Virus record (IMG/VR): IMGVR_UViG_3300006875_000218
Location: 1-20,876 of that record
Reading direction: 5' to 3' (one strand)
DNA: 20,876 nucleotides
Source of the DNA: a virus
Part shown: one piece after another, positions 3,060 to 18,895 of the stretch
Layout: each line of letters starts with the position of its first letter
How positions within the stretch are numbered: position 1 is the first letter of the stretch
Made by a program: the position numbers and the translations under genes
The notes under the pieces: generated by a model
Databases searched by the model: none
Told to the model about the DNA's origin: nothing
The model's input: the letters and a program-made list of their open reading frames with translations, nothing else

Positions 3060-6000
3060 TTAATTATTTAATCTTGCTTCCAATGCTGCGACTTTTTGTT
3101 GTAATTGTTCTACAGCTAGCACAAGATCATACACTGCTTTATTATGTAACGCTGTTAATTTACCTGTATCGTAAGTTTGTATTTTAAAGTCATATTCTGT
3201 AAGTTTAGGGTCATTAGGTAAGATAGGTGCTTCAATCATACCACCAGGTATAGCAGCACCTACTTGTTGTGCTGTATATCCCCAGGTAGGTTCGTCATAT
3301 GGATCACTTTTCCAGTCATAAAGTATAGGAGGTCCTAGTGTTTTAATAGCACTAAAACTATCACTAATAGGTATTACACCTAATACATTTTTGAGTCTAG
3401 CATCGGAACTGTAAGCTGTCCAGCTACTGGCGCCTTGATTCCAATAAACTCCTCGCCAATCCGTATATGCACGACCATTTGTAGTAGCATGATAAAATAC
3501 AATATTAGTGCCGTCACTACCAGCAATACTATTTTTAGCACTTTGTGGATAAGTAAAATAACTGCTAGTAGTACTTGACTGTAACTGTACTGTGTTAGTT
3601 CCACTGCCTGTAGCACCTTGAGCACCTTGAGCACCTGCTGGACCTTGAGCACCTGCTGGACCTTGAGCACCTGTAGCACCTTGAGCACCTTGAGCACCTG
3701 CAGGACCTTGAGGACCTTGAGCACCTGTAGCACCTGTAGCACCTGCAGGACCTGTAGCACCCGTAGCACCTGTAGCACCTGCTGGACCTTGAGGGCCTTG
3801 AGCACCTGCAGGACCTTGAGCACCTTGAGCACCTGCTGGACCAGAAGCTGCTCCCCATGTGCCATCTGCTCTTAAAAAGGTAGTTGTATTACCAGGCGGA
3901 GGACTAATATTATATCCACCCCAACCAAAGTTTCTAAAAGTATAATCACCACCACTAGTAGTTCCTAGATCAGTTACAGCTGTACCACGTAATTGTAATG
4001 GTCTAATAGCATTACTAGTTACTACAAAGCCACCATTAGTTATTTCTCTGCCAACTATGGCCGCCATAGCACTATTATCATAATCTAGGATTTTTTTACT
4101 GACGCCGCCACTAATACCATAATAGCCGCCGCTTGCAGCAGGATTTACAAGTTGTGGACTATCCGTCCAGGTACCATTACCAATTAATACTTGTGTAGCA
4201 GTGCCACCACTAGGTAAACCGGAAACACTACTCCAAGTACCATCAGCACGTAAATATGTTGTAGTATTATTAGGTGGTGCACTAATATTTACACTACCCC
4301 ATCTAAACGTGCCAGTAACTAGGTGGATAGCATAGCCATTATTAGGATCTGCTAATCTAACTTCAGCAACATTACCGTTGCTTCCTGTATAAGCTGCTTC
4401 AAATAATCCGCCTACGCACCAGCCAGCTGCTGACCAATAGCCTAGTACTCCAGTACCTGCATGTACTACGGTAGGTGTTTCTGTAGTATAATTTATTTGA
4501 CTGCCATAAACTGCTAAGGATTCAGCTGCGGCTGTACCACTTTTATAATAGCTGCATAGTTCGGTTACAGAACTAAAATCACTTTGCTGTGCTCTTATAG
4601 CAGTGCCAAATGTTGCTCCAGTTGGTACAGTTGAGCTATCGTAGTTAGTAAGAAAAACTGTTTGACCTACGCCATAAGTAAAAATACCATCAGTAATTGG
4701 TCTAGCATTTACAACTATAGTTGGTTCTGTATTATTTCCGGTTCCGCCTATAGATACTAATTCGCTATTGCTGCTACTAAGAGCTTTTAATCTATTACTA
4801 TTAGATAAATTTATTTCAATGCGCTGAGCACCGCTTACGCCTGTTACTAATTGACCGCGTAAATATGCATTAGTAGCGTACAAACTTCCTTCAGTTCTGT
4901 TTAAATAGTATCCTGTAGTACTAGTAAATGTTCCACCCGTAGGAGTACCACCAGTCCAGTTATCACTGCGTATATCTTGAAACACACTAGCAGCAATTGG
5001 TACGCTCCATACCGTAGTATTAGCGGGTATACTATCAACAGCTGTAGCATTGGGGTTATATCTACCAAATGTATACCAAACTACTTCGCCAACTGTAGCA
5101 CTTGGAGCAGTTAGAGTGTAGTCTGTAGGAGCAGTTGCTCCAGTAGTATTACTAGGTGCTGTAGTTAATGCTGAGTCTGATTGATTTCGTTTTCTATAAG
5201 CTGTTATACTACGTATACCTTCTGTACCATTAGTACCTGTACCTGCAGCACCTTGTGCACCTTGTGCACCTTGTGCACCTTGTGCGCCTGTAGCACCCTG
5301 CGCACCATTAATACCTCCAACAGCAGATACTACAGCTGTAGAAAATTCAGTAGCTGCTATTGTATCAGTACTTGTATTACTACTAGCTACAGCATACCTA
5401 ACCCATAAATATTCACCGTTAGTAATACTAGGAGCCGTAGTAGTCCAACTATTTAGTGTACCACCAGTTAATGCTGCTGTGCTAAACGTATAAGTAAATG
5501 TACCACTAAATGCTGCAGGAGCTGAACTGCTACTAGTATTTTTATTGTAGAGTGCTATAGTTGCAGTATTTATACCTGCAGCACCTTGAGCACCATTAGT
5601 ACCTCCAACAGCAGATACTACAGCTGTAGAAAATTCAGTATCTGCTATTGTATCAGTAGTTGTATTACTACTAGCTACAGCATATCTAACCCATAGATAT
5701 TCGCCATTGGTAATACTAGGAGCTGTAGTAGTCCAACTATTTAATGTACCACCACTTAATGTTGCTGTGCTAAACGTATAAGTAAATGTTCCACTAAATG
5801 CTGCAGGAGCTGAACTGCTGCTGGTATTTTTATTGTAAAGTGCTACAGTAGCGGTGTTTACACCATTAGTACCGGCGGTTCCGGCCTTACTTTTACTTAG
5901 CGAATAAGTTTTGGTACTAGTAAGACTGCCTTTTGTAGCAGTAACAGTTGTAATAGCTGAATCAGTAACTAATGCTGTAGGTGTTAAAGTATAATTATTA

Positions 6001-7472
6001 TTACCTTTAGCTACTCCTCCAATTGGTCCCGCCACAGGTGTTGTACCACCAGTAACAGTATATGTAATTGAAGTTGAATTTGGTATTGTAGCTACTACTA
6101 CACTTGTAGGACTTCCACCATACAACTTACCAGTACTATTTTCTACGGCAGATATTGTATCACCAACAGTTAAACCTGTAGTAGTAGACATGCCAGTAAT
6201 AGTAGCTGTCCAAGGACCGGTACCAGTTATAGTACCAATAGTACCTGTTGTACTAATTAAAGTTGGAGTAGTTAACGTAGTAGTAATTTTTGTACCACTA
6301 GGAGTATTAGCTTCATCAACTTTGGTAATAGTCCAGTTCATAGTTTCATTAACTGTGCCCTTAAATATTGCTCCATATGTTAAGGCACCAGTAAAGCTAG
6401 CTACAGCTCCGGTACTATCAGCGGCTACTACATGACTTTCATTAGTCATTATTTGAGTAATCGCATCTCCGCCATTATCGCCCCTAACAACAGTTATAGT
6501 ATCACTTAAAGTATTTAAAGTTGCGGTAACTTTTATATACCTAGTTGTAGTAGCACCTAAACTATTAAAATTAGCTGCTGATATAGATCTAACATCTCCT
6601 GATCCTGTTAGAGTTCCTGTTAAAGATCCTAAAGAATTATTAGATGAGTCGTATGCAGTTGCTGTAAAAGTAGGGTTACCAGTAACATTTTGCTTTGTTA
6701 CTGTAAATGAAATACTTGCTGGAAAAGTAGCTGTAGTAGAAGTACTATTATCAAATATAAATGCAAAATCTGATGTATCTAATTTAAATAGTTGAGCACT
6801 AGCTCCTGTGGCTCCTGCTAAACTTTTTACTACTACAAAATCTTTAGTTTGTGTAGTATATCCAGTTTTAGTTGCTGTACATGTTAGTGTAACCGGTGTA
6901 TTAACACTAATTGCCGTAACATTAATAGTTCTTGTTGAGGCACCGCTGGCCGTAACAGTAGCTGGAACAGTCCAACTATATGTCCAATTATTACTATCAT
7001 CTGTATTTCCAATTAGTATAGTCATAGTACTAGTAGCGGCGGTAAAATCGCCTCCAGTACCGTCACTAGCAGTAGGTACATTAACACTGCTTTTACTTAG
7101 AGTAGAAACTATAGTTTCTTGTAAACTATTAAGAGTAATGCTTGTACTATAAGTTATACCCAAAAATACTAATGTAGCAGTAAAAGTTATAGCTGTGCCA
7201 ATTGTGACATTACTAGAATTAATAGTAATAGTTTTGTCGCCGGCTTCGCTATAAGTTACTGCTGGTGATACACTCCATGTTAAATTAGATAAATTATTAA
7301 GGATACCAGTTAGTACTGGTTTAATAGTTATTGAACTAGGCTGTATTCCGCCCGAAGTTTTTACAAAATTTGTAGCACTAGGTAGGAGTATTATTTTATT
7401 ACTACCTATTTCTTCTAACCTAGGTGTAGTTGCTTGTAAAGTAAGATCTCTATCATTAATAATTGTAGCCAT
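3060..7472 (-). CDS. Large tail fiber with collagen-like repeats and S74 self-cleaving chaperone
   Basis: This is a 1470-residue receptor-contact fiber. The start overlaps the preceding stop as TAATG, with AGGGG ten bases upstream. The N-terminal third is made of beta-rich Ig-like or fiber modules rich in Thr and Ser. Residues about 404-484 look like an inserted FCCH-like module, followed by [13 protein letters not shown]. Residues about 535-726 are two tandem 96-residue modules ([20 protein letters not shown] onward). Residues 723-743 form a short Gly-X-Y run. There are two LRADGTW motifs, and 26 Gly-X-Y triplets occupy residues about 1211-1288. The C-terminus, from SSDARLK at about 1355, matches the intramolecular chaperone of endosialidase-type fibers (peptidase S74); Ser1356-Asp1357 is the likely cut, releasing about 114 residues after trimerisation, and the last residues form a coiled coil. 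The receptor cannot be told from sequence. Confidence 0.9.
3609..3842 (-). repeat. Collagen-like Gly-X-Y repeat, 26 triplets, in the fiber gene
   Basis: Twenty-six consecutive nine-base units encode GPA, GAQ, GPQ and GAT triplets without interruption. Gly is almost always GGT and Gln CAA, so the DNA is itself repetitive. It would form a stiff triple-helical stalk just before the S74 trimerisation domain. Repeats of this kind are prone to length change by slippage or recombination. Confidence 0.92.
5244..5306 (-). repeat. Short collagen-like run, 7 triplets, in the fiber gene
   Basis: Seven nine-base units encode GAQ, GAT, four GAQ and GAA, flanked by looser Gly-X-Y sequence (GIN on one side, GTG on the other). 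It follows the second copy of the 96-residue module and probably forms a short triple-helical hinge in the fiber. Confidence 0.8.
5294..5869 (-). repeat. Tandem duplication of a 288-bp (96-residue) fiber module
   Basis: Two adjacent copies with a 288-base period are almost identical in protein and differ at scattered, mostly silent bases. For example, ACCTCCAACA begins at 5313 in one copy and 5601 in the other on the given strand. Each copy encodes NTATxALYNKN, a Ser/Ala stretch, [30 protein letters not shown] and a conserved [17 protein letters not shown]-like end. The module resembles repeated units seen in other phage fibers. Confidence 0.92.
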
Positions 7473-9054: not shown

Positions 9055-12000
9055 CTATCGCTCTTGCATAGGTGCAAGTAAATTCTGTGTTTTACCAAAA
9101 CTACCAACATTTACATATTTTGTAGTTTTTATTTCGTCTACGACATTATCACTTGTATTAGTTAATACTTGTGATAATACTACTGTTTGAGCATCTATAG
9201 CTGCTTTAATTTCTGCTGCGGCTTTTGCTGCATCTTCAGCGGCTTTTTTAGCAGCTGCTTCTGCTGCGGCTTTTTCTGCTGCGGCTTTTTCTGCTGCGGC
9301 TTTTTCTGCTGCGGCTTTTGCGGCTGCTGCGGCTTTTGCTTCTGGTGTTAGTTCTAATGGAGTTACTATTATATCAGGCGCAATAATTTTTAGTTGTTCA
9401 GTAAATGCATTGCTTAAACTACTTGTTGCAGTATTACCTGCTTGTATAGAAGCAGCTGCGGTTTGGCCAACTGTTGTTGGATTTACAGCATTTACCGCAT
9501 TATATAAAGTAACTAATTCTGTAAATTTTTGTGCAGTTGTTTTTGTATTTGCTTCAATTAATCCTAGTGTTATGCCTTGGGCTGTTAGCAATTCTAGTTG
9601 TCGCTGAGCATCTGTTAATTTAGTATTAACGATTTCAGTTGTAGTATCTAAATCAGCTAATATAGATTTGTGTAACGTTTGATATAGCTCGCCACTACCG
9701 TACAGTGTACTAGCAGCTGTTAGTAGCTGTTGCGATAATGCTGGAAATTTTTCTGCAGCTTTTTCTGCTACAGCACTATCACTAGATCTTACATCCTGTA
9801 ATAACTTATCATATTCAGTACGTAATTGACTAAATTTGTCTAAGTCAGACAGTGGTGATAGATTACCTTGCAGCAGTTGAGTTTTAAAATCTACTAAACT
9901 AGTTTTTATTTTCTCTAGTGCTGATATACTACTTTCCAATTCTCGTTTACGATCTTCAAAAGTAGTTTTTAGTTGTGCTCTTAATTCCTTAAGTGTTGCT
10001 GCTTTAGTCCAACGTGCAATTACCGCTATATTTTCAGCAGTTGCTTGTTTAGCTTGATAAAGTGTTTCTACATATTCACTTGCTTTTGTACTTATTTCTG
10101 CTATTGCTTTTTCTAAAGGCGAACTTGTAGATTCTAACTCTAGAATTTCATTGTTTAAATCTTTTAATAATTTAGCTACTGCATTCGAGCTTTCGTCATA
10201 TACTTTCTGAAATGCTGGTGCTAGTTTCAATAAAGTTGTATATAAGTCTATACTAGCTTTATCGACCGGTTTTATACTTTGAACCAATTGTTTAAATTCT
10301 TCTTTTGTATCTACGCTTTCTAAGCCTAGTCTCTTTAAATCTTCTACTAATGCTTTTTGTACTGGGGCTAATCTTTCTGCTTCAGTTAAGAAATTATCAC
10401 GGAAGAACTCAGTTTGCTTTAAGAATTCGTCAAAGCCGCCTGCTGCGTCTGCAAGTGATTCAGTAATATCAAATTTATTTAGTAGGTCTATTGTTCCACC
10501 AAGATTTAATATTTGCTGAGCAATTTTTTCATTTGTATCAGTGACTCGCACTACTGTTAATAATAAATCTTCACCAAAATCTGCAAATTGTTCAAACTCA
10601 CTAAATATTGCTGCAGATGCGTCAGATATTAAACTACCTAATACAGCCTCTACTTCTGCTTTAATTTCTTCTCCAGTTTTACCTCTAAAACTAATCTTAG
10701 TTTCTGGCATTGCTTGATTTAGAACAGAATTTACTTCGTCTATTGTAGCTGTACCTGTTCGTTGTGCAACGTCTTTAATCAATCTTCCAGCACTAGTAAA
10801 GACTTGAGTAAAATATCTGGAAACGTCGTCGTCAACTTCTTTATAGTTATTTTCTATACTAGTTTTTGTTTTTCCATACCATTTTTTCTTTGTAACTTTT
10901 AATTGTTCAAAAAATTCTAAAGCTGTTTTATTTGCGGTACTTGCTAGTTCGGCAAAAGATCCTTGTATAACAATTCCAGAATCTTGGATTTCTTTAGTAG
11001 TTTTACTAGCAAATATACCTGTACCAAATAACCCTCTACCACTTTGTGTACCTTCAACTGTATTAAACATGCTACCAGTCGCTAAACCACTTACTCTAAC
11101 TAAAGACTTTGCAGTATTATTAATACCATTATCAATAGATTGCAACACTGATAACATTTGATTGTTAACACTTAACCCATCTACACTGGTTTCTTTAATT
11201 TTTTCAATGCCACGACTTATAGCTTCGCTTTTAGCATCAGTATCGCCAAACACGCCGCGACGTACTTGTACTTTTTGACCCTTTTCGTTATAACCCATGG
11301 CAGTGCCCTGGGTTTCTTGGCGTTGTTCGGCATTAGGTACAAAACCTCCGCCACCTTTGCCCCGACCCATACTGCCAAATGCTAATGCTACTAGTGCTGC
11401 TGCAACTGGTGGACCAAATATACCTAGTTGGCCAAAAGTTTTACCATATATTTCACCAATCATAAATGGCATACGTGTCATCATACCATTTATTTGTAGC
11501 ATGGTTTGAGCTGCTTCACTTGTAGCCTTTGAACTTACTTCAACGGCAGCTTTCTTGACAGACGTTACCATTTCTATGCCCATATTTACCATGCGCATAA
11601 TATGATAAGCTTTTTCTAGGGCTGCCAATGTTTTATAAGCTGCAGTATGCTGCTTAAACATTGTTTTCATTGAACCAAGTGCTTTTGCATTACCAGCTAA
11701 TTCGTCATCATTTATTTGTTTTTTCTTTTTTGCCTCAGCGTCTAATAAACCTTGTTTTTCATTAATGAAACCTATTTCTTCTTCACTACCTTGCGAAGCT
11801 TGAATTTTTTGATTAACATTTAATATATCTTGCTGAATTTTCTTTAAGGCTTCTTGGCCTTGTTGTTGTTTAATATTACTCTCTATAATAGTTGTAACTA
11901 TAGAGCCTAATTTAGTACCAACATTACCAAAAGCTCCGCCTAGTGCGTCTGCTAATTTAGCCGCTTGTTCTGTTCTATAAGAAATCTCTGCTTGTTTAAG

Positions 12001-15000
12001 TGCTTGCTGTCTTTGAATTTCTAATATTTCTAATCTTTTTTGTCTTTCGGCTTCTAGTGCCGCTAGCTGATTATTTGCTATATCAGTAATTCTTTGTTGT
12101 TCTTCAGTTAATTTTGCAGCTAAAGCTATTCCCTCTAAACCAAGGGCCTTAACTCTGGCTTCGGTTTCTAATCGTTTAGTACCTAAATTAGCTTCAATTT
12201 CTCCACGCTGTTTTATTGCATCAAAATTAGCTCGTTCTATATCCAACTCAGCAGTTTTATTGATTATAAACTTTTTATCAAGATCGTACAGTTCAGCTGC
12301 ACTTGTAAACTGAGCACGTTGAATTTCTAATCTTGTTTCTTCTTGGGCAATAATTGTATCTCTAGCAGATTTTTCTAATTCTGCGCGTTTTTGAATATCT
12401 TGGATTGTTAGTTCTGTTTGTCGCTGCTTTGTACGTATATCGAGATTTTTTAAATCTTCTGCATTTTTATCTCTGGTAGCATCATATAATTTTTGCTGGT
12501 ATGCGGCTTCTTGCTGAAACTTTACTTGCTTGGTTTCATCAAATTTAGCGTCAGCCTGATTTCTAGCTAATTCAATAGTGCTTAATTCTATACTTTGCCT
12601 ATTAATCATTGCTTGACGTTCAGATTGCGCGTCAGCTGCAATAACTTGTTGTGTAGTTAATCCAGCTATACCTTGAAGTAATCCAGAGCGAGCAGCTATT
12701 ACTTGATTAGTTTCATTTTCTATACGCAGGAGTTTATTTCTATCTTCTAAGCGTTGGCGTTCTTTTTGAATTTGTCCTTCTATTCCTGCGGCTCGCTTTT
12801 CGCCACCAAGCTCAATCAATCTGGCTTGTTGTTCTCCCTCTTTGCGACGAACTGCCCCAACAGCAGCATTTACTTGACGTGTTATCATCTTGGGATCTAC
12901 GCCACCAGGAACACTAAGTATTTCGTCCGATTTAGAGTAAGCACCGGCTTGTTGAACAGCCTCAGCTTGAGTAACGCGTCCGCTTAATATCGAAGCTACA
13001 AGTCCTGTGGCGACTTTATTTTCATATGCAACTCGTTTTTCTTCTGCTGTAGCATTTTGATCTGCTGAAACTCTAGCATAGTCTACACTAGCGCGAAGTG
13101 CTGCTAATTCTGATTGCAATAATTCATTTTCACGAATTAAATCTAAATTAACTTTAACTGCATTTATCTGTATGTCTATTTCTTGTAGGCGAATTCTAGT
13201 ACTTTCTTCAGCCGCCCTTTCTCCGCTAAGAACCATTGAATTAGCTTTAGCAATAGTAATACCTGCTTTTTCAGCAGCTTGACCTAGAGCTACTCTAATA
13301 TACTCGGCTCCGCGTGCGAACGCTATATCTAATCCCTTAGCAAATAATTCTCTGCCCTTTTCAATTTGATCTGTAGGCAGTTGTATAATTGCATCTTTTT
13401 TGGCAGCTAGATCTTTCTCTAAACTTTCTGCTTTTCTTCCAAGTATTCTTTCATCTCTGGTTTTTATAACTCTGCCAGTTTTTTCTCGCTCTTCTCGCAG
13501 CTCTTTTTCTTTTTGCCTAGTTTCCTCAAGTTCTTGTTGTAACTGCTTTTGTATACCAGTATATATTCTTAATGCGTTTGATTGATCTTTAAAACCCTGT
13601 TCGACTGCAACAAATTGTTGTATAAACTCTTTGCCAAATAACGCAGCTTTTTTGGGGTCTTTGCTTAATTCTTCAAAAGCAGCTTGTATTCCAAGAGTAC
13701 CTCTATTCATAGCACTTATCATACCGTCTGCTAGTATTTCCATACTTTCACCTAATTTAAATAGGGGATTAGTATTGGCTGTACTTTGCAAAAATTCTTG
13801 ATAGCTTTTTACTGCTTTATCACTAGCGTCCTTGAAACTTTCTAAGTCACTTCTAGTTTTATCCAGCTCTTTACGAGCTGATTCTAGTAGAGATGTAAAT
13901 CTATTTCTAACATCTTCACCTAATGTTGATAAGGCTTTCTCAACGGTTCCTGCACTTAAATCTTTAACTTGCAATAGTTGTTTAAATTGTTCGCGATACT
14001 TTTCGTCTATATTACTTCTACGTAATATATCAAGTGCGCTAATTAATTGTTTGCTTAACCCTTTGGCAACTTGATCATCAATACCATAACCAAAAAAATC
14101 TTTAAAACCTTCTACGATGGTATCAAAAAATCCAGTGCTAGCTTCTTTGGCTAGCCTAGCATCTACAACTAGTTTTTGCGCACTACTACTAATTTCCGCA
14201 AAAGCATTACTTAATGAAATTGCAGTATCAGTTAAACTTTTACCTAATCCAGCACGATCTAATTCAGCTAATGTTCTTTTTGTGTTAAGCGTAGATTCAT
14301 TTGCTGCATCAATGCTAGCTTTAAAGGCTTGCATTTGTTTTTCGTTTTTACTAAATAAGCTTTCAAATACAGCAAATACTGCTGCTCCTATAGATATTGC
14401 TGTAAGCGCACTACCTACTCCATTTAGTGTAGATAATAGCTTACCGCCTACAATACCTATGGCTCCTTGTATTAAGGCAGTTCTAGCGGCAAATTTTTCT
14501 ATTGAAGTGCTAGCATTGTCTATATCTATTTTTAATAGTTTCCAGGCTATACCTACTCCAAGAGTATTGGCTCTAGATACTGCCATCTGAACTATTTCGT
14601 CTTTTCTACCTTTAAGTTTAAGTGCTTGTATATCTTTTTCAAGGCTTATACCTAGTCGGCTATTTTTTGCAGCTTCTTCAGCTTGCTGTAGAGCTTTAGT
14701 ACGTAAAGTACTAAAACTTTGTTCACCAGCTAATTGTTCTTCTAAAACTTTTATAAATTCAGCCTCTAGTTTAATTCTTTCTTTTGTTTCAGAGGTTAGC
14801 TTTTGATTGCCACTACTAACTTGACGTAGGTAGTCTGCATGAGCTGCTTTTAGCTTTGTTAGTGCTTGCTGATCTAACTCTAGTGGATTTTCTTTAATAA
14901 TAGTTTGAAACTGTGGTGAAGCAGTTAGCAGTGCTCCTTGCGGCCCAACTTTTGCATTTTGCTTATAAAAATCTAATATTTTCTTTTCAGCAGCTACTAC

Positions 15001-16119
15001 TTTGTCAACTCTGGCATCGGCAGCTTCAGAAGCTTGTTTGACGGAATACTCTGCTAATTGTTTGTAACTATTTTTTAATCCCTCAATTTTTGTCTGAGTT
15101 TCATCAATACTATCTTGTAATTTTTTACCAAAAGCAGCACGTAGATCAGCAACGGCTGGAATAGCTCGTTTAAGAATTGCAGCAATAACGGCTGCAAGCC
15201 CAAGAGCTAGTGCTGTTGGGCTACTGGCTAATACTTCTACTATTGGCTTAAGAACTGTATTTAATAATTCTAGTCCGCTAAAGGCTACGTTTTGTAGGCT
15301 AGCCAACAACTTATCATATGGGTTTGCTTTGGCATCTGCTAGTGCTGCAAATTTTTCTTCGCCCTCTTTAAGCACAGCATTGGCAAATGCTTGACGACGC
15401 TCAAAATCCGTTAGCTGACTAACAGCTTTACCTAACTGTAGCGCATAAGCCTGCGTAGCTGGCTCAATTTTGGTAAAAATACCCAGTTCGTCTAATAATT
15501 CTGGCTCTAGTTTAACAATACCGCGACTAAGTCTGTTTAGTGCATCTGGCATGTTTACACCAAGCGCTAAACTAGCACTTTTTGCTACTGCTCCTAATCT
15601 AAGAATATTCTGACTGGTCATGCCAGCACTGCTAGTCATAGCTACGCTGCTCATAGCATCGCGTAGGCTAATAGCACCATCACTGGCTTGTGTTAGTTGT
15701 TTAGCAACTGTACCAAGTGCTTTTCCACTAACCGCACCTAGTGTATTGAGTCCCTCAATAAGATTGCTAGTGTCAGCAGCATTTCTAAGTACACCAAAAG
15801 CGGCACTAAGTGCAAATACGTTAGCAGCAAATGCAGCGTATAGTCTAATTAGTGGACCAAGTCCACGAGACTGATCTGCAAAGTCTCTAGCGGCTGCACC
15901 TGTTACACCAGCAGTACCACGCATTTGATTATACTCTAAATTTTCGCGAGGTGATTGTGCAGCGGCTTTTCTTCTGCTATCAGATTGTGCACGAGCTAAA
16001 GCATCTGCTGCTTTGGCAGCACCAGCAAGATTCTTATGTATATTTGCACTACTTGTTTCGGTTTCTTTTACGCCTTCAGCCTGTAGTTTTAATCGCTGCG
16101 TAATATCTGGAAGTGCCAT
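9055..16119 (-). CDS. Tape measure protein
   Basis: The product has 2354 residues and is the largest gene here, a hallmark of tail length determination. AGGAGAAG lies just before the ATG. The sequence begins ALPDITQRLKLQAEGVKETE, has a hydrophobic stretch at about 90-111, and from there to about 265 (NLIEGLNTLGAVSGKAL, DELGIFTKIEP, FANAVLKEGEEKF) resembles the phage minor tail/tape measure domain. Hydrophobic segments follow near 272-320, 545-590 and 1505-1590, the last ending in a Gly/Lys-rich turn. Most of the middle is long charged coiled coil, and the tail end holds Ala/Lys/Glu repeats. By the usual rule of about 0.15 nm per residue the tail would be near 350 nm if the whole chain measures length. 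No peptidoglycan hydrolase motif is apparent. It is the first gene of the unit driven from the promoter at 16179-16207 and ends in TAG. Confidence 0.95.
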   Translation of the reverse strand: MALPDITQRLKLQAEGVKETETSSANIHKNLAGAAKAADALARAQSDSRRKAAAQSPRENLEYNQMRGTAGVTGAAARDFADQSRGLGPLIRLYAAFAANVFALSAAFGVLRNAADTSNLIEGLNTLGAVSGKALGTVAKQLTQASDGAISLRDAMSSVAMTSSAGMTSQNILRLGAVAKSASLALGVNMPDALNRLSRGIVKLEPELLDELGIFTKIEPATQAYALQLGKAVSQLTDFERRQAFANAVLKEGEEKFAALADAKANPYDKLLASLQNVAFSGLELLNTVLKPIVEVLASSPTALALGLAAVIAAILKRAIPAVADLRAAFGKKLQDSIDETQTKIEGLKNSYKQLAEYSVKQASEAADARVDKVVAAEKKILDFYKQNAKVGPQGALLTASPQFQTIIKENPLELDQQALTKLKAAHADYLRQVSSGNQKLTSETKERIKLEAEFIKVLEEQLAGEQSFSTLRTKALQQAEEAAKNSRLGISLEKDIQALKLKGRKDEIVQMAVSRANTLGVGIAWKLLKIDIDNASTSIEKFAARTALIQGAIGIVGGKLLSTLNGVGSALTAISIGAAVFAVFESLFSKNEKQMQAFKASIDAANESTLNTKRTLAELDRAGLGKSLTDTAISLSNAFAEISSSAQKLVVDARLAKEASTGFFDTIVEGFKDFFGYGIDDQVAKGLSKQLISALDILRRSNIDEKYREQFKQLLQVKDLSAGTVEKALSTLGEDVRNRFTSLLESARKELDKTRSDLESFKDASDKAVKSYQEFLQSTANTNPLFKLGESMEILADGMISAMNRGTLGIQAAFEELSKDPKKAALFGKEFIQQFVAVEQGFKDQSNALRIYTGIQKQLQQELEETRQKEKELREEREKTGRVIKTRDERILGRKAESLEKDLAAKKDAIIQLPTDQIEKGRELFAKGLDIAFARGAEYIRVALGQAAEKAGITIAKANSMVLSGERAAEESTRIRLQEIDIQINAVKVNLDLIRENELLQSELAALRASVDYARVSADQNATAEEKRVAYENKVATGLVASILSGRVTQAEAVQQAGAYSKSDEILSVPGGVDPKMITRQVNAAVGAVRRKEGEQQARLIELGGEKRAAGIEGQIQKERQRLEDRNKLLRIENETNQVIAARSGLLQGIAGLTTQQVIAADAQSERQAMINRQSIELSTIELARNQADAKFDETKQVKFQQEAAYQQKLYDATRDKNAEDLKNLDIRTKQRQTELTIQDIQKRAELEKSARDTIIAQEETRLEIQRAQFTSAAELYDLDKKFIINKTAELDIERANFDAIKQRGEIEANLGTKRLETEARVKALGLEGIALAAKLTEEQQRITDIANNQLAALEAERQKRLEILEIQRQQALKQAEISYRTEQAAKLADALGGAFGNVGTKLGSIVTTIIESNIKQQQGQEALKKIQQDILNVNQKIQASQGSEEEIGFINEKQGLLDAEAKKKKQINDDELAGNAKALGSMKTMFKQHTAAYKTLAALEKAYHIMRMVNMGIEMVTSVKKAAVEVSSKATSEAAQTMLQINGMMTRMPFMIGEIYGKTFGQLGIFGPPVAAALVALAFGSMGRGKGGGGFVPNAEQRQETQGTAMGYNEKGQKVQVRRGVFGDTDAKSEAISRGIEKIKETSVDGLSVNNQMLSVLQSIDNGINNTAKSLVRVSGLATGSMFNTVEGTQSGRGLFGTGIFASKTTKEIQDSGIVIQGSFAELASTANKTALEFFEQLKVTKKKWYGKTKTSIENNYKEVDDDVSRYFTQVFTSAGRLIKDVAQRTGTATIDEVNSVLNQAMPETKISFRGKTGEEIKAEVEAVLGSLISDASAAIFSEFEQFADFGEDLLLTVVRVTDTNEKIAQQILNLGGTIDLLNKFDITESLADAAGGFDEFLKQTEFFRDNFLTEAERLAPVQKALVEDLKRLGLESVDTKEEFKQLVQSIKPVDKASIDLYTTLLKLAPAFQKVYDESSNAVAKLLKDLNNEILELESTSSPLEKAIAEISTKASEYVETLYQAKQATAENIAVIARWTKAATLKELRAQLKTTFEDRKRELESSISALEKIKTSLVDFKTQLLQGNLSPLSDLDKFSQLRTEYDKLLQDVRSSDSAVAEKAAEKFPALSQQLLTAASTLYGSGELYQTLHKSILADLDTTTEIVNTKLTDAQRQLELLTAQGITLGLIEANTKTTAQKFTELVTLYNAVNAVNPTTVGQTAAASIQAGNTATSSLSNAFTEQLKIIAPDIIVTPLELTPEAKAAAAAKAAAEKAAAEKAAAEKAAAEAAAKKAAEDAAKAAAEIKAAIDAQTVVLSQVLTNTSDNVVDEIKTTKYVNVGSFGKTQNLLAPMQER
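9261..9319 (-). repeat. 15-bp tandem repeat in the tape measure C-terminus
   Basis: The unit CTGCTGCGGCTTTTT (given strand) occurs three times exactly and a fourth time almost exactly. It encodes repeated KAAAE pentads within a longer Ala/Lys/Glu helix (about residues 2266-2310). The repeat would make a rigid charged helix and is a likely site of copy-number variation. Confidence 0.85.
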
Positions 16120-16153: not shown

Positions 16154-16196
16154 TTGTACCTTTGTAAGTTTTATGTTAATTATACCACAGGTACAA
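16154..16196. promoter_or_regulatory. Inverted repeat bracketing the -10 of the tape measure promoter
   Basis: TTGTACCT (16154-16161) and AGGTACAA (16189-16196) are exact inverted copies separated by 27 bases. One arm lies in the -35/-10 spacer and the other just downstream of the predicted start. The placement suits an operator for a phage or host regulator, or a DNA loop across the start. No regulator gene is visible, so the role is inference. Confidence 0.4.
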
Positions 16197-16207
16197 AAAA
16201 ATATCAA
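16179..16207 (-). promoter_or_regulatory. Near-consensus extended -10 promoter for the tape measure unit
   Basis: On the minus strand TTGATA (16202-16207) is followed by 17 bases and TATAAT (16179-16184), with TGG directly before the -10 as an extended -10 element. The predicted start near 16172 leaves a leader of about 52 bases to the tape measure ATG. It stands immediately after the terminator at 16228-16264. Confidence 0.88.
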
Positions 16208-16227: not shown

Positions 16228-16264
16228 AAAAAAGCCTTCTAATATCAACTAGAAGGCTTTTTTT
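16228..16264 (-). terminator. Rho-independent terminator after the tail chaperones
   Basis: A perfect 14-pair stem (AAAAAAGCCTTCTA with TAGAAGGCTTTTTT) has an 8-base loop and A/T runs on both sides, so it could act in either direction. The TGA stop of the second chaperone frame lies in the loop, and the last codons form one arm. It separates the tube/chaperone unit from the tape measure promoter. Confidence 0.9.
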
Positions 16265-16604
16265 CTTGTGCTTTATGTTTTTTGGTTATAATGTCACTGC
16301 GAATTCTATCTGTAGTAGACATTATTTTTAACATTATTCTTTGTTCAGTTTTTTCAGTAATTTCATAAGTATCGAATAGGCTAAATACTATGCTATAGTC
16401 TTTGCCCATAAATGTGGCACTCATGCCTTCCCAGCGATCTGGTAGATAGCTGTACAGTTCTAGTGCTTGTTGAACTATATCTAGTAGGTCATCAAACTCT
16501 ACAGGTATCTCGCTATCAACTGGCTCACTGTTTAACATTTCACACATTTCAAAATACTGATCCTTGGTCATGCCAACATCACTATTTTGAAAATAATTTT
16601 CCAA
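16245..16604 (-). CDS. Tail assembly chaperone, -1 frameshift extension (GT-like T part)
   Basis: The bounds given cover the frame from its first possible start, a TTG at 16604 with no ribosome site. I infer that it is not translated on its own but entered from the first chaperone by a -1 shift at 16640. The open frame reaches back to 16649, before any stop. The fusion then reads ...DLGN followed by LHQEQIADISNQLENYFQNS, adding 131 residues for a 263-residue product. The content (YFEMCEMLNSEPVDSEIPVE, then DDLLDIVQQALELYSYLPDRW and GKDYSIVFSLFDTYEI) matches the second part of siphovirus tail chaperones, which binds the tape measure and brings tube subunits to it. The C-terminus is Lys-rich and its DNA forms part of the terminator. 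Confidence 0.85.
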   Translation of the reverse strand: MENYFQNSDVGMTKDQYFEMCEMLNSEPVDSEIPVEFDDLLDIVQQALELYSYLPDRWEGMSATFMGKDYSIVFSLFDTYEITEKTEQRIMLKIMSTTDRIRSDIITKKHKAQEKKPSS

Positions 16605-16621
16605 TTGATTGCTTATATCAG

Positions 16622-17035
16622 CTATTTGTTCTTGGTGAAGTTTCCCAGATCAGTTACTTGCTCGCTAATAAAGCTGTCAAAATTTACAGAGCTTTTCATT
16701 AAGTATAGTGCATTTTCTTCACTGTACTCTAATTCTGCTTCTGGATCTTGATCACTAACATCAACAGGCGCAAGTTGTTCAAGATAACGCATTTTAAGCC
16801 CAGTCCAACCTTTAATTGATCCTTTAACATATAGTTCTAAGAACAGGTCATCGTTTAGCTCTTCAACAGGCTGACGATTTTTAAAGGTAGTTTTTGTGGC
16901 TTTTTTGCGAATTGTTTGTAGGGTTTCACGACTTAAAAAACATACTTTAACTTCAAACCCAGGCATACCTGGATATTCTACGTTAATTTCCTTGCTAGGA
17001 ACTAGCATGCTTTTTAGGGACAACTGTGCTGACAT
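16622..17035 (-). CDS. Tail assembly chaperone (G-like)
   Basis: This 137-residue protein sits between the major tail protein and the tape measure, the standard place for the lambda gpG-like chaperone that coats the tape measure during tail assembly and is absent from the finished virion. The ATG follows AGGA by about ten bases. The sequence MSAQLSLKSMLVPSKEINVE, PGFEVKVCFLSRETLQTIRK and later EENALYLMKSSVNFDSFISE resembles known members; the length is also usual. The gene ends CTG GGA AAC TTC ACC AAG AAC AAA TAG, so most ribosomes make the short form and a minority slip at GGGAAAC to make the long form. Confidence 0.88.
   Translation of the reverse strand: MSAQLSLKSMLVPSKEINVEYPGMPGFEVKVCFLSRETLQTIRKKATKTTFKNRQPVEELNDDLFLELYVKGSIKGWTGLKMRYLEQLAPVDVSDQDPEAELEYSEENALYLMKSSVNFDSFISEQVTDLGNFTKNK
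16640..16646 (-). other. GGGAAAC slippery heptamer, programmed -1 frameshift site
   Basis: In the frame of the first chaperone the heptamer is phased G GGA AAC, the canonical X XXY YYZ form, with the zero-frame stop 15 bases further on. The second chaperone frame is exactly the -1 frame and is open from 16649. The lambda tail chaperones use GGGAAAG in the same place. I see no clear downstream pseudoknot or stem. Confidence 0.85.
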
Positions 17036-17085: not shown

Positions 17086-18378
17086 TTATACTGTGGTATT
17101 AGCTGAGTAGTAGGTGATTTTGGCTTCGTTGTTTTGATCAATTGCGAAGTCACTGCCACTATAACCTTGAGCAGTAAAGTTAATTGTTGAACTAACAACC
17201 TGCTCAGTATTAATAGCTGGGATTGTAAGTACACAAGCTGGTAGCAATAGATTAACACGAGTAGCTGCACTACTATTTCCACCAATATTTAGCTCAATTT
17301 GAAAATCTGGTTCTACGTCTGTAGCACTACCTGTTAACATATCAGCAAGTAGTTGAGCACTACGATTAGTACCACCTGTACGTAAGTAGCAATTTACACT
17401 ACCACTAACTGCTCGCGTACCAGTAAAGTATGTAAATGGTTTATTAACAGTAGCTAAGTTAGCAGGTGTTAAATAGGTAACATTATTACTAAAAGTAATA
17501 TTTCCACCTGTTAATGCTAAGTCATATGTTGTACCAGCGGTACCACTAATGTTACTAGTAATAGTAATTTGACTTAGTTTATTAGCTAAGAAAGGTGCTG
17601 TAGTTACCTTAGCTTTTGCTACATTACCACTAGCGCTAAAGTATGCTCCGCTAAAGGCTACTGGGCTAGCTTTGTCTGCAGTAATTGCTACACTACGTAG
17701 TGTACTACCGCGAGCTGTCCAAGCAATAGTAGCAATTGCATCTAGGCCAAAGTCAATACTTGCTTGGTCTAACACGCAATTATCTATAATATAGCTGCTA
17801 GCATCTACTGTAATAATAACGCCAAACTTAACCATTTGATTTTTGCCGCTATTAGTAAATTCTACAACGCTATAAGGTGCAGCACCAGTAGCTCCTTTTA
17901 CTTGATACCAAGCGGCTTTAAAACCTGCGGTACCAGTAGCACTTACTGGATTTGTACCAGGTGTAGCATTTGCTCTAGCATTAGATGCGCTGGCAATATT
18001 CTCATCTACACCATTAATATAACCAGCAGCAAATGCGTTCCAAAGCACATCTTCTTCAGCGTCTACTAAATCGTCATTATCAAATGCTGCAAGGCTAGTA
18101 CTACCCTCTACGAAAGCTGGGCGAATATAAGTACTAAAACTTAGTTCTACTGGTTCTAGGCTAGTATTGAAACTACGCTGACCACGAATAGGAGCATCAC
18201 CGGCTTCATTAATAGTTACAGTTTCGCTACCAGTAGCCTGGCTAAAACTTAGCCCATCAAGTACTTGTATTTCTTTAGTATTTGCGGCTGTAAATCCTGT
18301 TGTCTTTACAACACCTGTGTTTACATCCACATTAGTTGTAAAGAACATACGCGCGTTACGAATTAAATTAAAACTCAT
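17086..18378 (-). CDS. Major tail (tube) protein
   Basis: This 430-residue protein is encoded directly before the chaperone pair. AAGGAAGTGAG lies just upstream of the ATG. The N-terminal half (MSFNLIRNARMFFTTNVDVN, NTKEIQVLDGLSFSQATGSE, then EAGDAPIRGQRSFNTSLEPV and ELSFSTYIRP) resembles tail tube proteins of a group of Gram-negative phages, and the C-terminus repeats the beta-rich style (VVSSTINFTAQGYSGSDF). Hexamer rings of it would stack along the tape measure to form the tube. The region around residues 265-330 (ITITSNISGTAGTTYDLALT onward) may be an extra surface domain. It stands alone between a 76-base leader and a GC-rich hairpin, which could allow separate, high expression. Confidence 0.88.
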   Translation of the reverse strand: MSFNLIRNARMFFTTNVDVNTGVVKTTGFTAANTKEIQVLDGLSFSQATGSETVTINEAGDAPIRGQRSFNTSLEPVELSFSTYIRPAFVEGSTSLAAFDNDDLVDAEEDVLWNAFAAGYINGVDENIASASNARANATPGTNPVSATGTAGFKAAWYQVKGATGAAPYSVVEFTNSGKNQMVKFGVIITVDASSYIIDNCVLDQASIDFGLDAIATIAWTARGSTLRSVAITADKASPVAFSGAYFSASGNVAKAKVTTAPFLANKLSQITITSNISGTAGTTYDLALTGGNITFSNNVTYLTPANLATVNKPFTYFTGTRAVSGSVNCYLRTGGTNRSAQLLADMLTGSATDVEPDFQIELNIGGNSSAATRVNLLLPACVLTIPAINTEQVVSSTINFTAQGYSGSDFAIDQNNEAKITYYSANTTV

Positions 18379-18454: not shown

Positions 18455-18895
18455 TTACATGATCTGATAACGAACTTGTAAGATAATTTCGCCAACTGCA
18501 TAGGGAGCCAATAATCCTTCGTCTGTAGTAATCGACTGTATTTCTATTTCAGTTGTGCCATATTGATTTGTTGCGTCATATACTAAGGTTCTATTTAAGT
18601 CTACACAAGTTTCTAGATCGCTTAATAGGGCTTCGAGTTGTTCTTGTGATTCTTCCTCACTTTTTACATATGCTTTAACACATACACTTAATAAACCCCA
18701 GGCAAATCCACCAGGTAAATAATCACGAGTTTCACTGGTAGGGTGTACATATACAGCTGGAAAATCATTTACTTCGTCCCAGAACTTTAGTTTGGGGTAG
18801 CTGTTATTTGTTAAATTTGTGGTATATGGACTAGTACCGTCTATGGTTTTGAACACTTCGGCAAGTGCTTTAACTATGCTAACTCTCTTGCTCAT
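18455..18895 (-). CDS. Tail terminator / tail completion protein
   Basis: This 146-residue protein is encoded between the neck protein and the major tail protein, where siphoviruses carry the protein that caps the tube and joins it to the head. The start overlaps the preceding stop as ATGA and has only a weak ribosome site, so translation is probably coupled. The pattern fits the family: an N-terminal helix (IVKALAEVFKTIDG), then FWDEVNDFPAVYVHPTSETR, a strand pair around GLLSVCVKAYVKSEE, an EQLEALLSDLETCVD helix, and a final EIILQVRYQIM strand. No enzyme motif is present. The assignment comes from this pattern and the position. Confidence 0.78.
   Translation of the reverse strand: MSKRVSIVKALAEVFKTIDGTSPYTTNLTNNSYPKLKFWDEVNDFPAVYVHPTSETRDYLPGGFAWGLLSVCVKAYVKSEEESQEQLEALLSDLETCVDLNRTLVYDATNQYGTTEIEIQSITTDEGLLAPYAVGEIILQVRYQIM

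Follow-up and report, generated by a model that had tools for sequence, protein, structure and literature searches.

The analysed DNA, hereafter the window, is a stretch of 20,876 nucleotides from an uncultured phage (IMG/VR record IMGVR_UViG_3300006875_000218, positions 1 to 20,876). On its minus strand, a pair of chaperone genes in two overlapping frames sits between the genes for the major tail protein and the tape measure protein. The major tail protein (17086-18378, 430 aa; PHROG 3575, E 6e-55) is the presumed partner of the T domain, and the tape measure protein (9055-16119, 2354 aa), assigned by its position and by a PHROG match (E 8.8e-10) covering the part translated from 9058-10500, is the presumed client of the chaperones. 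The tail terminator protein is encoded at 18455-18895, also on the minus strand (Pfam PF23818, E 7.5e-40). The window has the module order of T5-like phages (Demerecviridae), namely tail completion protein p143, tail terminator, major tail protein, chaperones and tape measure, as supported by PF25747, PF23818 and PHROG matches; unlike T5, it has no minor tail protein (T5.144 in T5) at the position just before the chaperones. A pattern scan detected a near-perfect sigma70-like promoter, TTGATA-17-TATAAT, before the tape measure gene (16179-16207, minus strand). The same pattern was found at the tape measure gene in 50 of 61 relatives as compared with 0.3% of control stretches, and this conservation suggests that the gene may have its own transcription unit. 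A terminator-like hairpin (16228-16263) overlaps the end and stop of the T frame; its T-run was scored on the plus strand, and the sequence is T-rich on both sides. Elsewhere on the minus strand, 3060-7472 encodes a 1470-aa tail fibre-like protein with long collagen-like repeats, the C-terminal stretch of which presumably resembles an intramolecular chaperone of the peptidase S74 type.

The first chaperone frame, ORF1, extends from 17035 to 16622 on the minus strand and encodes a zero-frame product of 137 aa. Its 3′ end reads GTA ACT GAT CTG GGA AAC TTC ACC AAG AAC AAA TAG and contains the slippery heptamer GGGAAAC at 16646-16640, in phase as G_GGA_AAC. The zero-frame stop codon TAG (16624-16622) follows 15 nt past the heptamer, and the -1 frame is open from 16649 to 16245. 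Counted from the C of the heptamer that is read twice, the -1 frame extension (16245-16640, minus strand) encodes a T-like domain of 131 aa plus a stop. The post-slip reading of these 131 residues starts as LHQEQIADISNQ..., and the predicted fusion is 132 + 131 = 263 aa, with a junction peptide that contains ...DLGNLHQEQIADISNQ.... Recalculation gave the same coordinates and phase of the heptamer, distance to the stop, open -1 frame and fusion length as had been claimed in the earlier note. The slip site is the sole occurrence of GGGAAA(A/C/G) on the minus strand of the window, and among the 41 in-phase heptamers of any kind in the window genes, only the GGGAAAC site has a -1 frame open for more than 41 codons (133 codons).

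Both frames were assigned to tail assembly chaperones. ORF1 matched PHROG 313 (E 1.3e-16) as a G-like tail assembly chaperone, the T-like frame (ORF2) matched PHROG 3914, tail assembly chaperone (E 2.3e-18), and chaperone-family matches were obtained for 64 of 64 sampled members of each of the ORF1 and ORF2 sets. No match to the lambda G family was present in the Pfam and PHROG scans. In the 258-position profile of PHROG 313, T5-type ORF1 proteins matched at 12-141 and T5-type T proteins at 170-258, which indicates that at least some records carry both parts as one chain. AlphaFold2 models based on alignments of the contig-scan loci showed high confidence for both ORF1 (pLDDT 89) and the T domain (pLDDT 91). 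By VIA-align, the ORF1 model was closest to YqbN (3klu, Z 6.0) and the HK97 tail assembly chaperone (2ob9, Z 5.4), followed by a next match of 2.8. The PHROG match and the predicted fold, the latter with modest Z values, identify ORF1 as a tail assembly chaperone. The T model opens with a helix (residues 2-22) that follows straight on from the junction, and it matched predicted phage 'tape measure chaperones', and Foldseek gave no match of the T domain in the PDB. The PHROG matches of both ORFs, the gene order and the fold match of ORF1 agree with the earlier identification of the two frames as a tail chaperone pair.

Viral-contig scans and phage records yielded 226 loci including the window, and a scan of genome contigs found no relative. 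Dereplication at ≥95% protein identity reduced the set to 124 loci, and 104 representatives had the -1 arrangement. An in-phase X_XXY_YYZ heptamer was present at the junction in 102 of these 104 (65 G_GGA_AAC, 35 A_AAU_UUU and 2 A_AAU_UUC), against a background of 0.8% of codons for in-phase A/T-type heptamers in the ORF1 bodies of the family. The two exceptions (L057 and L225) keep the -1 frame and read TCG AAT TTT TCG and AGC AAT TTT CAG, respectively, which leaves a U_UUU slip; they are possibly weaker sites or sequence errors. The earlier note had expected relatives to keep the heptamer and its phase. This proved true of slipperiness and untrue of the exact GGGAAAC, which was kept in 65 of 104 and is replaced by A_AAU_UUY in several lineages. 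AAATTTT or AAATTTC sits one codon downstream of GGGAAAC, and the exchange occurred more than once on the tree. Since the residues at the junction are well conserved, with Asn and Phe nearly invariant or invariant throughout the family, the heptamer might be kept just for a protein need for Leu-Gly-Asn-Phe, with the second frame decayed or separately expressed. This is hardly conceivable, because the synonymous choices are also fixed and because lineages that lose the Gly gain AAATTTY instead; moreover, non-slippery relatives with an intact -1 frame are just 2 of 104. In the GGGAAAC group, the slip Gly codon is GGA in 100% (background 38%), the slip Asn codon is AAC in 100% (background 49%) and the Leu codon before them has G as its third base in every case (CTG background 10%), although these figures are only illustrative since the group was picked by its motif, the unconditional fact being the 102 of 104. 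The largest drop of codon entropy below background was found at Leu-Gly-Asn and one Ser, which places the slip codons among the most constrained of ORF1. A frame change seen in a metagenomic contig can also be an artefact, and assembly error or transcriptional slippage would mimic the arrangement. The same arrangement was, however, found in more than 170 loci, and the homopolymer runs of GGGAAAC are too short for slippage of the polymerase, which makes this explanation extremely unlikely.

Alternatively, the T domain might be synthesised on its own, with translation starting internally or by termination-reinitiation at either the TTG or the ATG that lies 23 codons past the slip. This ATG lies in a conserved GMTKDQY motif in which it is common (at codon 23 in 38 of 102 relatives), and GenBank annotators of T5-like phages often set the start of the second gene near it. 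In the window, scanning 50 codons into the -1 frame revealed no start with a convincing ribosome site: the TTG, which lies 20 nt beyond the first base of the stop codon, has nothing better than a 4-base match (TAAG), and the earliest ATG (codon 23) lacks a ribosome site match. The earlier claim that the second frame lacks a good start was therefore borne out. For comparison, 76 of 95 ORF1 representatives with an ATG start have a Shine-Dalgarno match of at least 4 nt, whereas in 89 of 102 relatives even a 4-nt match is missing from every start, of whatever kind, up to codon 50 of the -1 frame. Most relatives lack a Shine-Dalgarno sequence at the GMTKDQY ATG, four of 102 have no ATG at all in the first 50 codons, and few starts are close to the stop (an ATG within 20 nt of the zero-frame stop is lacking in 98 of 102). 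Initiation at the internal ATG would also remove the first helix of the modelled T domain, and it leaves the fixed slippery heptamers and their swaps unexplained. Across about 100 dereplicated relatives, we found none that combines a lack of slippery site with a well-supported ATG, the combination that the earlier note had named as evidence against frameshifting. Between the zero-frame stop and the first Met in the GGGAAAC clade, differences in the -1 frame numbered 288, 148 and 399 at codon positions 1, 2 and 3, a bias that moderately supports protein-like change in the -1 frame. Separate synthesis of the T domain is thus considered very unlikely.

These results strongly suggest that a -1 programmed frameshift at G_GGA_AAC gives rise to a G-T fusion in this uncultured T5-like phage, a reading in which we have high confidence on sequence grounds. 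Most ribosomes would read ORF1 through to the TAG and produce the 137-aa G-like chaperone, while a smaller share, carrying tRNA-Gly at GGA and tRNA-Asn at AAC, would slip back by one base to GGG AAA and go on in the -1 frame to produce the 263-aa G-T fusion. On the lambda model, the tape measure protein may be bound by G in many copies and by G-T in few, and the major tail protein may be recruited through the T domain. The slippage itself, its efficiency and the mechanism of the chaperones are what we infer from the locus. Frameshifting of this type is ordinary in kind and a known type of device.

The tail assembly chaperone frameshift of lambda G/GT was reportedly described by Xu, Hendrix and Duda, and the slip motif in lambda is G_GGA_AAG. 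The precedent of lambda, which the earlier note had invoked, is apt: both systems have G followed by T before the tape measure gene, a -1 slip near the end of G, a second frame without a start of its own and no obvious downstream stimulator. The window differs in its motif, G_GGA_AAC, and in that YqbN and the HK97 chaperone are the solved structures which its predicted G fold most resembles, with no match to the lambda G family. According to a review covering the lambda G/GT frameshift (PMC5009743), G_GGA_AAG is highly shift-prone in E. coli, and the ratio of G to the fusion is about 30:1. The same review lists G_GGA_AAC as the -1 frameshift site of g-t in HCTV-1, a haloarchaeal siphovirus; this is an archaeal virus, and its likeness to the window is in the shift site.

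Stimulators were sought by folding the 45 nt after the heptamer and calculating a z score for each representative. In the GGGAAAC group, the median z was -0.10, with 9 of 65 below -1.5 and the window at -1.35, and RNAalifold predicted no pairs downstream of GGGAAAC. The earlier observation that no downstream stimulator is obvious thus applies to the GGGAAAC clade, though most AAATTTT relatives have a stem-loop. In the marine AAATTTT clade, the median z was -3.18, with 23 of 26 below -1.5. The stem begins 8 nt past the heptamer in 17 members, in which 5 of 10 pairs have changed on both sides, 88.8% of cells are paired, and the covariation score is 0.299, compared with 0.146 in shuffles and at most 0.109 when the stem was slid. 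A second AAATTTT lineage, lying inside the GGGAAAC clade (L120, L121, L129 and L138), forms a separate stem at a distance of 9 nt from the heptamer on the downstream side (z -3.9 to -5.0). The stem-loop of subgroup A3 is well formed and too conserved to reveal covariation, and the AAATTTT members L075, L077 and L197-L200 are without the stem-loop. An Rfam scan gave sub-threshold matches only. In the marine AAATTTT loci (L147-L192), a second strong fold was observed about 120-180 nt past the slip site, inside the T frame, where the mean z was -3.4 over all AAATTTT loci. A hairpin of the window about 48 nt past the slip site (TTTCAAAATA...TATTTTGAAA, z -3.3) was rejected as a stimulator, since pair changes do not support it (3 pairs with two-sided changes among 45 relatives, versus 5.1 in shuffles); it is rather a by-product of coding for the YFQN and YFEM motifs.

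It might be supposed that AAATTTT is the weaker motif and needs the stem-loop. This is contradicted by measurements in E. coli, which may not be the host of the window phage, in which G_GGA_AAC is the low-efficiency motif and H_HHU_UUY is efficient (PMC4066793). The low efficiency of G_GGA_AAC in E. coli and the absence of a stimulator in the GGGAAAC clade weaken the case for -1 frameshifting. However, the motif is frequent in IS elements, where little product may be wanted (PMC4066793), and a low fusion fraction as in lambda is thus plausible.

The chaperones of T5-like phages (T5.143/T5.142, Shivani and Sugarland) are homologous to those of the window (about 28-41% identity for G and 23-33% for T), have the same gene order, and their overlapping frames meet at the same Asn/Thr/Ser-Phe codons. 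In T5 and its relatives, however, the T frame is +1 relative to G, and in place of a -1 heptamer the junction has UUU_CGU or UUU_CGA; the window does not share this +1 relation. All 17 named phages examined, including T5, Shivani and Sugarland, have exactly one in-phase TTT followed by CGT or CGA in the permitted interval, and environmental +1 members add UUU_CGC and UUU_CAC. The TTT_C codon aligns with Phe133 of the window. From this arrangement, we infer that tRNA-Phe slips +1 from UUU to UUC, which indicates that T5 may achieve an equivalent result by slipping forward at the corresponding codon. The joined CDS deposited for Shivani (277 aa) has a length that fits -2 arithmetic. A -2 shift in the T5 group is less likely, because in Vibrio D120, 70E35.5a and My1 the whole permitted interval is AAC/TCC TTT CGT TAA, in which the cognate re-pairing that can be discerned is from UUU to UUC (+1). 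The +1 codons from UUU_C to the annotated T start were compared in 19 T5-type genomes, and the pairwise counts, which are not independent events, amounted to 16, 6 and 190 differences by codon position and to 188 synonymous and 19 non-synonymous codon differences. Both patterns indicate that this stretch is selected as protein, though most records leave it unannotated. According to the Sugarland paper, no signal is predicted in either Sugarland or T5 (PMC6256483), and we found no earlier report of a T5 +1 site in the open-access literature, while subscription journals could hold one. The UUU_CGU core proposed for the T5 group is also that of the +1 frameshift at UCC_UUU_CGU of influenza A PA-X (PMC3498833), and Pectobacterium phages DU_PP_V and My1 read UCC UUU CGU; PA-X is translated by eukaryotic ribosomes from an unrelated gene, and only the motif is convergent.

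On an ORF1 tree built with the junction columns removed, the change between -1 and +1 needs a single step, and the -1 clade has a support of 93/92, although long branches and the small number of columns make the deep joins unsure. The GGGAAAC and AAATTTY motifs replace each other repeatedly on this tree. It is therefore likely that a homologous chaperone family switched the direction of its shift once, with UUU_C (+1) in the T5 group and G_GGA_AAC or A_AAU_UUY (-1) in the clade of the window, two A_AAU_UUY lineages having an added stem-loop. Given a +1 slip on UUU_C in this family, it is likewise probable that T5 makes a G-T fusion despite the reported lack of a signal.

The rule of tail-chaperone frameshifting is thereby extended to a large environmental phage group, and a possible answer is offered for the model phage T5, in which annotation treats the two chaperone genes as encoding separate proteins. 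GGGAAAC without a stem-loop, AAAUUUU with one and UUU_C in +1 form a natural series, in which one could study how the required ratio of proteins is maintained as the mechanism of slipping varies. In hundreds of matching T5-like records, annotators could join the chaperone genes, and the parts worth specialist testing are the switch in shift direction within the family and the +1 site proposed for T5. Several minor features were observed in the T5 group. In loci such as L083 and L112, a hairpin (TAGATGCTG/CAGCATCTA; TAGATGCCG/CGGCATCTA in L112) lies about 22 nt past TTT_C, the proposed +1 site, and ahead of the annotated T start. The UUU_C stretch is missing from ORF1 of the +1 member L201 (2501-2899), owing to a deletion or an assembly fault. 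In Aeromonas phage AhSzq-1 (L090, MG676224), the unannotated chaperone gene at about 2001-2402 contains in-frame stops including TAG, which reflect either sequencing errors or unusual decoding.
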